Assembly (NCBI RefSeq): GCF_025751535.1
Contig: NZ_JAOWLC010000001.1
Location: forward strand, 248,001 to 312,000
Length of the DNA: 64,000 bases
Direction of reading: 5' to 3'
From: Lentibacter sp. XHP0401
GTDB taxonomy: Bacteria; Pseudomonadota; Alphaproteobacteria; Rhodobacterales; Rhodobacteraceae
Shown: one piece after another, positions 48,898 through 51,446 of the stretch
Layout: every line of letters begins with the position of its first letter
How positions within the stretch are numbered: the first letter of the stretch is position 1
Made by a program: the position numbers and the translations under genes
Notes under the pieces: model-generated
Told to the model about the DNA's origin: nothing
Databases searched by the model: none
What the model saw: only the letters and a program-made list of their open reading frames with translations

Positions 48898-49467
48898 TTA
48901 GGCGACGACTTTTCCACGAGCTAAGGCCGCAACACCTGTGCGCGCGACTTCGGTCAATCCCAGAGGCCGCATCAACTCGCTGAAGGCATAAATTTTTTCC
49001 GGTGTGCCCGTAATCTCAAAGACAAAGCTCTCAAGTGTGCTGTCTACAACACTGGCCCGGAAGATGTCGGCCAAGCGCATGGCTTCAACGCGTTTGTCGC
49101 CGATCCCCTCAACTTTCAACAGCGCCAATTCTCGCTCAACAGACGGGCCCTCAACGGTCAGGTCATGGACTTCATGCACTGGTACAATCCGGCCAAGTTG
49201 CGCTTTGATTTGTTCAATCACTTGCGGTGTGCCGGTGGTCACAATCGTGATCCGTGAGCGATGTCCAGCGCGGTCAATCTCGGCCACTGTCAGGCTTTCG
49301 ATGTTGTATCCACGGCCTGAAAACAACCCGATGACGCGTGCCAGAACACCTGCTTCGTTATCGACAATAACCGCGAGTGTATGCGACTCCACGTGGTCAC
49401 TAAAGGTCGGACGTAGGTTGTAGGCCGAGTGCTTGTTCGAGCCTTTTTTAATTTTGAGAGCGGACAT
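48898..49467 (-). CDS. ilvN: Acetolactate synthase small (regulatory) subunit
   Basis: This 189-residue subunit carries an N-terminal ACT domain (HTLAVIVDNEAGVLARVIGLFSGRGYNIESLTV, about 28-60) that binds valine for feedback inhibition, and a second ACT-like half (about 105-180). It activates the IlvB catalytic subunit in the first step of valine, leucine and isoleucine synthesis. I chose the ATG at 49467 (MSALKIKKG), which follows GGAAGG; the frame is open further upstream. It starts 34 bases after ilvB and shares its leader-controlled transcript. Confidence 0.95.
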   Translation of the reverse strand: MSALKIKKGSNKHSAYNLRPTFSDHVESHTLAVIVDNEAGVLARVIGLFSGRGYNIESLTVAEIDRAGHRSRITIVTTGTPQVIEQIKAQLGRIVPVHEVHDLTVEGPSVERELALLKVEGIGDKRVEAMRLADIFRASVVDSTLESFVFEITGTPEKIYAFSELMRPLGLTEVARTGVAALARGKVVA

Positions 49468-49501: not shown

Positions 49502-51256
49502 TCAGACGAGCACAGCGCCGCTGCTGCCGATTGCGTCTTTGGTCTGGGCTTCACCGAGCAGCATCTTGTTGTGTGGTTCGCCCGAGGGGATCATCGGGAA
49601 GCAGTTTTCATGCTTGGTCACGAGGCAATCAAAGATAACCGGCCCATCATAGGCGATCATTTCCTTGATAGCTTCATCAAGATCATCCGGATCATCAACG
49701 CGAATGCCTTTGGCACCAAAAGCTTCGGCCAGTTTTACAAAGTCAGGCAGAGCTTCACTCCAAGAGTGCGAATAGCGCTCACCATGCAGAAGTTCCTGCC
49801 ACTGGCGCACCATACCAAGGCGCTCGTTGTTGAGAATAAACTGTTTCACAGGCAGGCGATACTGGATTGCAGTGCCCATTTCTTGCATGTTCATCAGCCA
49901 ACTGGCCTCGCCTGCCACGTTGATAACGAGGCTGTCAGGATGCGCCATTTGCACCCCGATAGAAGCAGGGAAGCCATAACCCATGGTTCCAAGGCCGCCT
50001 GATGTCATCCAGCGGTTCGGGTCTTCAAAGCCAAGATATTGTGCAGCCCACATCTGGTGCTGGCCTACCTCGGTGCAAACATAGCGGTCGCGGCCTTTTG
50101 TGAGCGCTTCAAGGCGGGCAAGGGCGTGTTGCGGTTTGATAACCTTGCCTTTTTGTTCAAACTTGAGACAGTTAACCTTGCGCCAGTCTTCAAGCTTCGC
50201 CCACCATTTCTGTAGGCCTTGCTTGTTTGTTTTGCGCCCGCGAGCTTTCCAAACCTTTAACACATCTTCAAGAACATGCCCCACGTCGCCAACAATAGGA
50301 ATGTCGACGCGAATGACTTTGTTGATGGAAGAGGGGTCGATATCAATATGGGCTTTTTGCGAATTCGGGCTGAAGGCATCAAGGCGGCCTGTGATGCGGT
50401 CATCAAAGCGCGCACCGATATTGATCATCAGATCGCAGCCATGCATTGCCATGTTGGCCTCGTAGAGCCCGTGCATACCGAGCATCCCCAACCAGTTTTT
50501 ACCGGACGCGGGGTAAGCCCCAAGGCCCATCAGAGTGGAGGTGACGGGGAAATCTGTTCCGTCGACAAGCTCGCGCAGAAGCTGGCTTGCAGCGGGCCCC
50601 GAGTTGATCACGCCGCCACCTGTATAAAATATAGGGCGTTCCGCGTTCTCAATGGCTTCAACAAGCTCTTCGATCGATGCCATATCTCCCTTAACGGGCG
50701 GTTGGTAGCGGCTCACTTTGACTTTTTGCTTGGGCGTATAATCAGCTGCGGCAAACTGCACGTCCTTGGGAATATCAACAAGCACAGGGCCGGGACGGCC
50801 GGTTGTGGCCACATGGAAGGCTTCATGGATTGTCGCCGAAAGCGAGGCAGTGTCTTGCACGAGCCAGTTATGCTTGGTGCAGGGGCGCGTGATGCCAACG
50901 GTATCAGCTTCCTGAAAGGCGTCCGTGCCGATCATGAATGTCGGAACCTGACCTGTCAGAACAACAATTGGAATGGAATCGAGCAGTGCGTCTGTGAGGC
51001 CTGTCACAGCGTTCGTGGCGCCCGGGCCGGAAGTCACAAGCACAACACCGGGTTTTCCTGTCGAACGCGCGTAGCCTTCTGCGGCGTGAACAGCGCCTTG
51101 CTCGTGGCGGACAAGCACGTGGCGGATACCGTTTTGTTGGAACACTTCGTCATAGATCGGGAGCACAGCTCCGCCTGGGTAGCCGAAGATGACCTCCACG
51201 CCCTGATCCTTCAGGCATTCTACGATCATCTTTGCTCCGGTCATTTGACGTGACAT
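49502..51256 (-). CDS. ilvB: Acetolactate synthase large (catalytic) subunit
   Basis: This 584-residue TPP enzyme condenses pyruvate with pyruvate or 2-oxobutyrate. It has the TPP-activating glutamate in [16 protein letters not shown] near 47-62, [14 protein letters not shown] near 72-85, an FAD-binding middle domain (about 200-340), and the TPP/Mg motif [12 protein letters not shown]. The conserved GDG of the usual motif reads GEA here, which should be checked. I chose the ATG at 51256 ([10 protein letters not shown]). The leader region with promoter, leader peptide and terminator lies directly upstream. Confidence 0.95.
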
Positions 51257-51296
51257 TTCCAAGCTCCATTCCAAACTTCGTTTTACACATAAAAAA

Positions 51297-51315
51297 GCCC
51301 CCGATTTTCGGGGGC
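51297..51315 (-). terminator. Attenuator terminator upstream of ilvB
   Basis: On the minus strand an 8-bp stem (GCCCCCGA / TCGGGGGC) with a 3-base loop is followed by six T residues (51291-51296), 35 bases before the ilvB start. It is a textbook intrinsic terminator in the 5' leader. Its 5' arm shares three bases with the arm used by the competing pairing at 51313-51322. Confidence 0.88.
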
Positions 51316-51357
51316 GCATGGGGTTACCTCAGGGTGTCCGTTACCGGCCCATGCGCC
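51313..51357 (-). promoter_or_regulatory. Antiterminator pairing in the ilvB leader
   Basis: GGCGCATGGG (51357-51348 on the minus strand) is a perfect 10-base complement of CCCATGCGCC (51322-51313). The upstream arm lies inside the end of the leader peptide; the downstream arm enters the terminator stem. A ribosome stalled at the earlier Leu/Val/Ile codons would leave both arms free to pair and would weaken the terminator. Confidence 0.75.
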
Positions 51358-51388
51358 TTTTTCTCACAATGACCACTAGCTTCAACAT
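51341..51388 (-). CDS. ilvB leader peptide (15 residues, Leu/Val/Ile rich)
   Basis: The mini-gene encodes MLKLVVIVRKRRMGR and then TAA. Positions 2, 4, 5, 6, 7 and 8 are Leu, Leu, Val, Val, Ile, Val, so the three branched-chain amino acids made by the pathway are all sampled before the RNA switch. AAAAAGG lies about 10 bases before the ATG. Its end overlaps the upstream arm of the antiterminator. It is too short for ordinary gene finders, so it is probably unannotated. Confidence 0.85.
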   Translation of the reverse strand: MLKLVVIVRKRRMGR

Positions 51389-51417
51389 GCCGAGTGCCTT
51401 TTTGCTGCGTTTGCGAG

Positions 51418-51446
51418 ACATTAGATTCGTGAAACAGGGGCGTCAA
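51418..51446 (-). promoter_or_regulatory. Sigma70-type promoter of the ilv leader
   Basis: On the minus strand TTGACG (51446-51441) and TAATGT (51423-51418) are separated by exactly 17 bases, close to the housekeeping -35/-10 consensus. The expected start of transcription is about 20 bases before the leader peptide ATG. Confidence 0.75.

Follow-up and report, generated by a model that had tools for sequence, protein, structure and literature searches.

What does the short region before ilvB do in Lentibacter sp. XHP0401, and does its design belong to branched-chain amino acid synthesis only? The question was addressed in a 64,000-nucleotide stretch of contig NZ_JAOWLC010000001.1 (hereafter the window), in which an initial annotation had marked a complete transcription attenuator before ilvBN. 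The element is very probably a ribosome-mediated transcription attenuator of ilvBN within a leader family that also has members before Bcr/CflA-type pumps. An attenuator before ilvBN is expected; the surprise is that leaders of one family stand before a biosynthetic enzyme gene and also before an unrelated efflux pump gene, with cross-matches to 2e-17 outside the taxonomic family of the window.

Anatomy and conservation of the ilvB leader

Direct reading of the minus strand from 51446 to 51256 placed the promoter, mini-gene, antiterminator arms and terminator where the initial annotation had put them (Table 1), and NCBIfam and Pfam agree with its identification of ilvB and ilvN.

Table 1. Features of the ilvBN leader and of the neighbouring genes, in window positions.
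Feature	Position	Strand	Remarks
Promoter TTGACG-N17-TAATGT	51418-51446	-	Read in sequence; TTGACG 51446-51441, TAATGT 51423-51418
Shine-Dalgarno-like AAGG of the mini-gene	51397-51400	-	Read in sequence
Leader mini-gene MLKLVVIVRKRRMGR, 15 codons + TAA	51341-51388	-	ATG at 51388; control codons 4-8
5' antiterminator arm GGCGCATGGG	51348-51357	-	Inner nine bases conserved
Small hairpin CCG-GTAA-CGG with stop codon, within the antiterminator	51338-51347	-	96.0% of cells paired over 76 sequences
3' antiterminator arm CCCATGCGCC	51313-51322	-	51315-51313 common to the terminator
Intrinsic terminator, 8-bp stem GCCCCCGA-AAA-TCGGGGGC + T6	51291-51315	-	Stem 51315-51297, T6 51296-51291
ilvB, acetolactate synthase large subunit, controlled gene	49502-51256	-	ATG 51256; NCBIfam and Pfam
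ilvN, acetolactate synthase small subunit, controlled gene	48898-49467	-	NCBIfam and Pfam; start picked by eye
TRAP transporter gene, dctP-type	Upstream of the ilvB leader	-	Strand as ilvB

A pattern scan recovered the terminator and missed the promoter, TAATGT fitting three of the six positions of its second hexamer; the scan also reported a 12-pair terminator-like stem at 51567-51540, after the upstream TRAP transporter gene. That the terminator before ilvB merely shields it from read-through of this dctP-type gene, which lies upstream on the same strand, is scarcely credible, as the dctP-type gene owns the stem at 51567-51540 and a promoter and a conserved mini-gene intervene. Mini-ORF, nine-base pairing and terminator arose jointly in 0 of 5000 dinucleotide-preserving shuffles of the 244-base region, which rules out a chance origin of the arrangement; an Ile/Leu/Val-rich mini-ORF by itself arose in 434 of 5000. 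The three Rfam matches around the element (E up to 5) included no riboswitch or T-box, and such an identity was dropped.

For comparison, 81 upstream regions of ilvB were compiled from the window and 80 named relatives among the matches listed for IlvB, the nearest relative among these matches being an uncultured Lentibacter (93% identity). The leader was alignable from mini-gene to T run in 76 of the 81, with a length of 98 to 107 bases. The resulting alignment (A1) omits L037, in which a contig end truncates the leader and tail and terminator are visible; L025 and L071 (Palleronia), in which the branched-chain mini-gene is present and its tail altered; the divergent leader of L066; and L056 (Nereida sp.), which had no leader or terminator in the 350 bases upstream of ilvB and kept a promoter-like sequence.

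This comparison, which the initial annotation had itself proposed, found the mini-gene, its branched-chain codons, both stems and the promoter conserved among relatives. TTGAC was present upstream of all 76 leaders, the window included, TTGAC-N16-18-xAxxxT in 72 (spacer 17 in 69), and a Shine-Dalgarno-like 4-mer before the mini-gene in 72/76. The antiterminator had been described as a perfect 10-base pairing; ten pairs are indeed present in the window, but only nine are conserved, the tenth being paired in 37 of the 76. In the nine-pair helix 99.1% of cells were paired over the 76 sequences and four pairs were invariant, and in the terminator stem seven of the eight pairs were kept in every leader and the eighth in 47. 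The mini-gene ends in Arg-Met-Gly-Arg-stop, with Met and the final Arg in 76/76; the stop codon is UAA in 58 and UGA in 18, giving a consensus CCG-GURA-CGG for the small hairpin around it; L025 and L037, both among the five relatives left out of the alignment, have UAG. This hairpin showed a single two-sided change (L027), and its fold probability was 0.41 on average and 0.96 in the window. Covariation, proposed earlier for both stems, was almost nil in the antiterminator within the family, because the sequence is nearly frozen there, and appears once pump leaders are added (see below).

The leader ORF is short and rich in codons of the regulated amino acids: codons 2-10 include five Ile, Leu or Val codons in 55 leaders, six in 16, seven in one, four in three and three in one (n = 76). 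The run, which had been called unusually early, occupies codons 4-8, its usual location among the 76 leaders. Codons that are rare in the same 76 ilvB genes are favoured, CTA making up 38.6% of Leu codons (39/101) in the leaders versus 1.4% in the genes, and GTA 52.7% of Val codons (109/207) versus 4.2%. GGA is favoured too (40/67 Gly codons, 59.7%, versus 5.2% in ilvB), so the bias is unspecific to branched-chain residues. The codon of Arg-12 was CGC in all 73 cases. In codon 11 the third base is G in 75/76, and this G pairs with a nucleotide also used by the terminator; its constancy while the encoded residue varies points to selection at the RNA level.

A covariance model built from the 76 ilvB leaders only (R1) matched 263 of 292 genomes drawn from the order, in 107 of 112 genera, where the genomes among those listed all belonged to the window's own family and the downstream gene was read for a minority of the matches, among them those of the 12 genomes with two matches (below). 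In a search of the class, ilvB lay downstream of the match in all five genomes of the family. R1 had no match in 29 of the 292 genomes of the order; the genus label g279 accounts for 12 of the 20 listed among these, and in this genus the leader may have been lost or changed. The leader arrangement is the family norm for ilvB.

Fold model and switching

From the anatomy we infer a transcription start, translation of the mini-gene, premature termination and an amino acid response, which would be linked as follows. RNA polymerase would start near 51410, with a trailing ribosome translating the mini-gene. A shortage of charged Leu-, Val- or Ile-tRNA would stall this ribosome within codons 4-7 and leave the arm at codons 11-14 free to pair with the segment just 5' of the terminator; the paired arm would capture the terminator-stem base pairs adjoining the U tract and so permit read-through into ilvBN. 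At ample supply the ribosome would reach the stop codon and mask the arm, the full terminator would form, and transcription would end near 51291. An intrinsic terminator does lie between the leader ORF and the first gene, and attenuation by branched-chain supply is well supported by the conserved sequence together with the modelled geometry.

The geometry was calculated with a partition-function masking model, in which the ribosome is assumed to cover up to 15 nt past the first P-site base. Over the 76 leaders, the mean antiterminator probability fell from 0.80 with codon 6 in the A site to 0.00 at the stop codon, and the mean terminator-base probability rose from 0.73 to 0.99. In this model the antiterminator exceeded 0.5 in 75/76 with codon 6 in the A site and in 0/76 at the stop codon, and the terminator base in 76/76 at the stop codon and still in 64/76 with codon 6 in the A site. 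The window gave antiterminator and terminator-base values of 0.90 and 0.42 at codon 4, 0.82 and 0.76 at codon 6, and 0.00 and 1.00 at the stop codon. For stalls at codons 4-7, the arm is free at the stall and covered at the stop codon in the masking model. The earlier statement that stalling at codons 2-8 frees the arm holds up to codon 7 but fails with codon 8 in the A site, where the first two arm bases are masked and the terminator base closes (0.99) in the same model.

Antiterminator and terminator overlap by two conserved nucleotides, with a third one in 37/76. Because the overlap is only 2-3 nt and both structures largely coexist at equilibrium in the model of most relatives, they do not appear to be a textbook exclusive pair, and the "classical attenuation logic" first ascribed to the locus is not supported in that form. 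With so small an overlap, the switch must rest on a contested terminator-stem base or on the order of folding. According to the fold model the control point is likely to be the two base pairs adjoining the U tract, and the outcome at these contested pairs would probably be decided by co-transcriptional folding order. A switch on two shared nucleotides makes the locus a good test of the minimal overlap for an attenuator.

In the model without a ribosome the antiterminator exceeded 0.5 in 70/76; with 25 nt of 5' UTR added it did so in 68/76, and the terminator base in only 25/76. A protector (1:2) hairpin, which is a feature of the trp archetype and was not treated as required of every attenuator, was not evident in the fold models of the 76 leaders, in which the antiterminator persisted without a ribosome. 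Since the untranslated leader favours the antiterminator, blocked initiation is predicted to raise expression as well.

Relatives of the leader before efflux pumps

In the initial annotation the attenuator was real, and its core reading is supported, but the connection with pumps was missed. R1 had matches in 21 of 385 genomes of the class, five in the window's family and 16 outside it. Eleven of the outside matches (L096-L106, E 2.3e-17 to 3.1e-5) had mini-gene, 3' arm and terminator, and the downstream gene was in 11/11 a homologue of one MFS transporter, with 47 to 68% identity to a reference pump (P0004) that derives from L098 itself, one of the eleven loci. P0004 scores above the NCBIfam cut-off of the Bcr/CflA efflux family. 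The outside matches L107-L111 (E 4.9e-5 to 9.7e-4) were set aside, being without leader and without pump or ilvB nearby. Twelve genomes of the family had two R1 matches, one of which preceded ilvB in 12/12 and the second a pump homologue in 11/12. Locus L135 was discarded as a non-leader.

A second model (R2) was made from 22 pump leaders, and is not independent of R1 because its rows were found with R1; the match of the window leader to R2 at E = 3.3e-17 is partly circular for this reason. Independent support for the kinship comes from R1's own E values and from plasmid loci fetched by the pump protein. R2 matched 19 of 387 class genomes; the gene after the match was ilvB in each of the six within the family and a pump homologue in each of the 13 outside it, two of the latter being new. 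In the family 166 of 198 genomes matched, three with two matches, so pump copies are uncommon there. Laxer filters gained no further second copies in 40 hand-picked genomes, 38 of which had been chosen for an earlier R2 match, so that "38 of 40" is no rate. A search over 100 loci found 99 and missed L066; its input combined the window and 69 of the 80 named ilvB loci with four additional ilvB loci and with 26 pump loci, many of the latter being R2 rows.

In the window's own genome R2 found no second leader copy at E <= 0.01, and the R1 matches there (L086-L091, E 0.028 to 9.6) were discarded as non-leaders. This genome has a pump homologue (G000 C11, near 347097; 48% identity) with a 15-codon mini-ORF, MKASTRILVRRRKEA (L142 1416-1463), 79 bases upstream of the likely pump start and with no evident terminator; the mini-ORF is perhaps a decayed leader.

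Pump homologues on plasmids were sought by protein alone, which gave 30 records, 17 of them fetched. Strong R2 matches (1.6e-22 to 3.7e-18) were found in five of the 17, on replicons of Roseobacter denitrificans (pTB1), Phaeobacter piscinae, Leisingera caerulea, Burkholderia arboris and Burkholderia cenocepacia, and weak ones (2.4e-5 to 6e-3) in seven, all of which are Rfam Atu_C8; four fetched records had neither an R2/Atu_C8 leader nor a TPP riboswitch. Pump leaders thus found occur on plasmids predicted to be conjugative, and in betaproteobacteria. A TPP riboswitch (L169 515-631) precedes an Agrobacterium plasmid homologue of the same pump family; the leader-bearing pump of a Leisingera plasmid (L188 3886-7248) lies near a chloramphenicol phosphotransferase and two acetyltransferases; and on a Robbsia plasmid the region upstream of the pump homologue includes an IlvB-like fragment of 56 aa with 59% identity (minus strand, L185 3-170, about 8303-8470 of L186), which lies where no gene is annotated and not far from ectB and a purine-synthetase-like gene.

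With ilvB and pump leaders combined (A4, 99 leaders), nine pairs had two-sided changes versus a shuffled mean of 1.3, with 0/500 shuffles as high; A4 was fitted to the model and hence is biased towards it, and slid controls were 22-55% paired. The pump leaders alone (n = 22) had three such pairs versus 1.6, 75/500 shuffles being as high, so their own covariation is not clearly above shuffles; 89.3% of their cells pair versus 32-56% in slid controls. The base shared by the two structures, read as a triplet with its antiterminator partner before and its terminator partner after, gave CGC in 74, UGC in 12, CGU in 12 and UAU in one of the 99. In L131 the pairs are U-A (antiterminator) and A-U (terminator), where the others have C-G or U-G and G-C or G-U, and the same change is seen in L132, of the same genus and outside the 99-leader count. 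The change in L131 and L132 counts as one event, but such a change is what a base with a partner in each of two alternative structures would be expected to leave.

L123, although an ilvB leader, has a tail like those of pump leaders (MHNLLVVVVVERRMVR), and the pump leader L124 encodes a peptide like those of ilvB leaders (MKQIVIVVGRMRMGR), which suggests exchange between the two sets. A tree of 77 ilvB and 22 pump leaders left the sets unseparated, the best split misplacing nine (support 0.76), and since it mixes both sets the direction of transfer is not settled by the tree.

The upstream regions of ilvB were read also in genomes with a pump leader, 17 in number (12 with the R1/R2 form, five with the Atu_C8 form), of which 16 gave IlvB at E <= 1e-120. 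An Ile/Leu/Val-rich mini-ORF was absent from the 450 bases before the ilvB match in 14/16; L156 has one such frame at -331 and L163 two nested ones at -420 and -405, far from ilvB in each case. R2 had no match at E <= 1 before ilvB in the 16 loci. With no such leader at ilvB in these genomes, its use before ilvB seems peculiar to the window's lineage and its use before pumps more widespread. By eye, the ilvB loci L153, L157 and L159, outside the family, have a promoter-like TTGAC and a T run after an apparent stem, and no branched-chain mini-ORF was found upstream of ilvB in them; other leader types may act on ilvB outside the family.

The window leader scored 24 bits against Rfam RF02502 (Atu_C8), below the gathering score of 50, and was rejected as a member, and the window's own genome had no RF02502 match at E <= 0.001. 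RF02502 was over its cut-off in one of 142 class genomes and in six of 36 genomes of that genome's family, the first included; matches under the cut-off (L083, L084, L141) were discarded as non-leaders. In all six loci from the RNA search (L082, L136-L140) Atu_C8 precedes a Bcr/CflA-type pump homologue, an association left untouched by seven further Atu_C8 loci (L172-L174, L178, L179, L182, L183), because these were fetched by the pump protein. Most of the 13 Atu_C8 loci read have a Val-rich mini-ORF, e.g. MMQVSVVVGRRMGKAA (L082) and MKIAMVLVVVIGRMGRMV (L173). Atu_C8 resembles the window leader in the GCGCATGGG/CCCATGCGC pairing, the Val-rich mini-ORF and the terminator, but the terminator of L082 shares no bases with the 3' arm. 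An identity as rhizobial ilv attenuator was dropped, since L082 has a pump gene. Judged by sequence, the Atu_C8 "Rhizobiales sRNA" is a relative of this leader before the same pump, and the kinship suggests what this Rfam sRNA family probably is.

The cataloguing of a related RNA as an sRNA, and the nearly frozen arm sequence among the 76 leaders, would also suit a second role in trans for the leader peptide or for the RNA of about 120 nt that termination would release, a role for which rnTrpL/peTrpL of Sinorhizobium trp provide a precedent in the account of trans roles of the trp leader peptide given in PMC7298713. Such a role is quite improbable here: freezing is explicable as well by coding combined with pairing to two partners, and the 5' arm does vary among pump leaders.

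The branched-chain run is weaker before pumps, with at most four Ile, Leu or Val codons among the eight before the tail in 18/22 pump leaders, and it is nearly gone in L105, L133 and L152. The same leader build is nevertheless kept there, as might be expected of a general sensor of translation, responding to ribosome availability and inhibiting drugs, in which branched-chain supply would be one input and any failure to reach the stop codon would lead to read-through. The absent protector hairpin, the preference of the untranslated leader for the antiterminator, and the chloramphenicol phosphotransferase and acetyltransferases near the Leisingera plasmid pump agree with this, as does a uORF attenuator of Sinorhizobium described in PMC12218461 as responding to translation inhibition, namely to tetracycline and ribosome availability. 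We consider the general sensor unlikely, because nearly all 76 ilvB leaders retain a Leu/Val/Ile run that draws on each of the pathway's three amino acids, which a general sensor would not need. Attenuation of ilvBN by branched-chain supply remains the preferred reading.

Origin of the module and comparison with known systems

As a tentative synthesis, the leader may be a portable ribosome-sensing module whose older role would have been to activate a Bcr/CflA-type pump in response to slowed ribosomes, the cause being either drugs or lack of valine. One Rhodobacterales lineage would then have moved the module before ilvBN, the Val run being widened to a Leu/Val/Ile sensor, and Atu_C8 would be the rhizobial form of the pump leader. 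The pump kinship makes it possible to test whether a regulatory RNA has been moved from one function to another.

The E. coli trp and ilv attenuators consist of a leader peptide with control codons, an antiterminator and a terminator. Compared with these, the window leader has an overlap of arm and terminator of 2-3 nt only and no evident 1:2 hairpin.

No link of a branched-chain leader or of Atu_C8 with a Bcr/CflA pump was found in the open literature searched, which is not a claim of absence from print; the words "bcr" and "ilv" are absent from the main texts of PMC12218461 and PMC7298713. Passages of PMC8632094 describe a uORF attenuator of cysS in Rhodobacterales, and the "ilvB motif" named there is from Leptospira. 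In Corynebacterium, according to PMC10272879, a uORF upstream of ilvB regulates the ilvBNC operon; this system belongs to a different phylum from the window and is likened to it by description only.

Closer to the window, a leader peptide of alphaproteobacterial ilvB was already known by 2005 (PMC1273637, citing Vitreschak 2004), and PMC2573895 lists a cis-regulatory element of ilvIH for Sinorhizobium. By these accounts both represent described or predicted attenuation of acetolactate synthase, as here, and the passages citing the systems of Vitreschak 2004 mention no pump, unlike the present case. For Caulobacter crescentus an attenuator of ilvBN is described whose leader has Ile and Val codons in tandem (Tarleton 1994, as cited in PMC4117421). 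According to these citing passages, ilvBN attenuation in alphaproteobacteria is already known, having been reported in 1994 and 2004, and the C. crescentus attenuator, likened to the window by description only, shares with it the operon, the intrinsic terminator and the alphaproteobacterial host.
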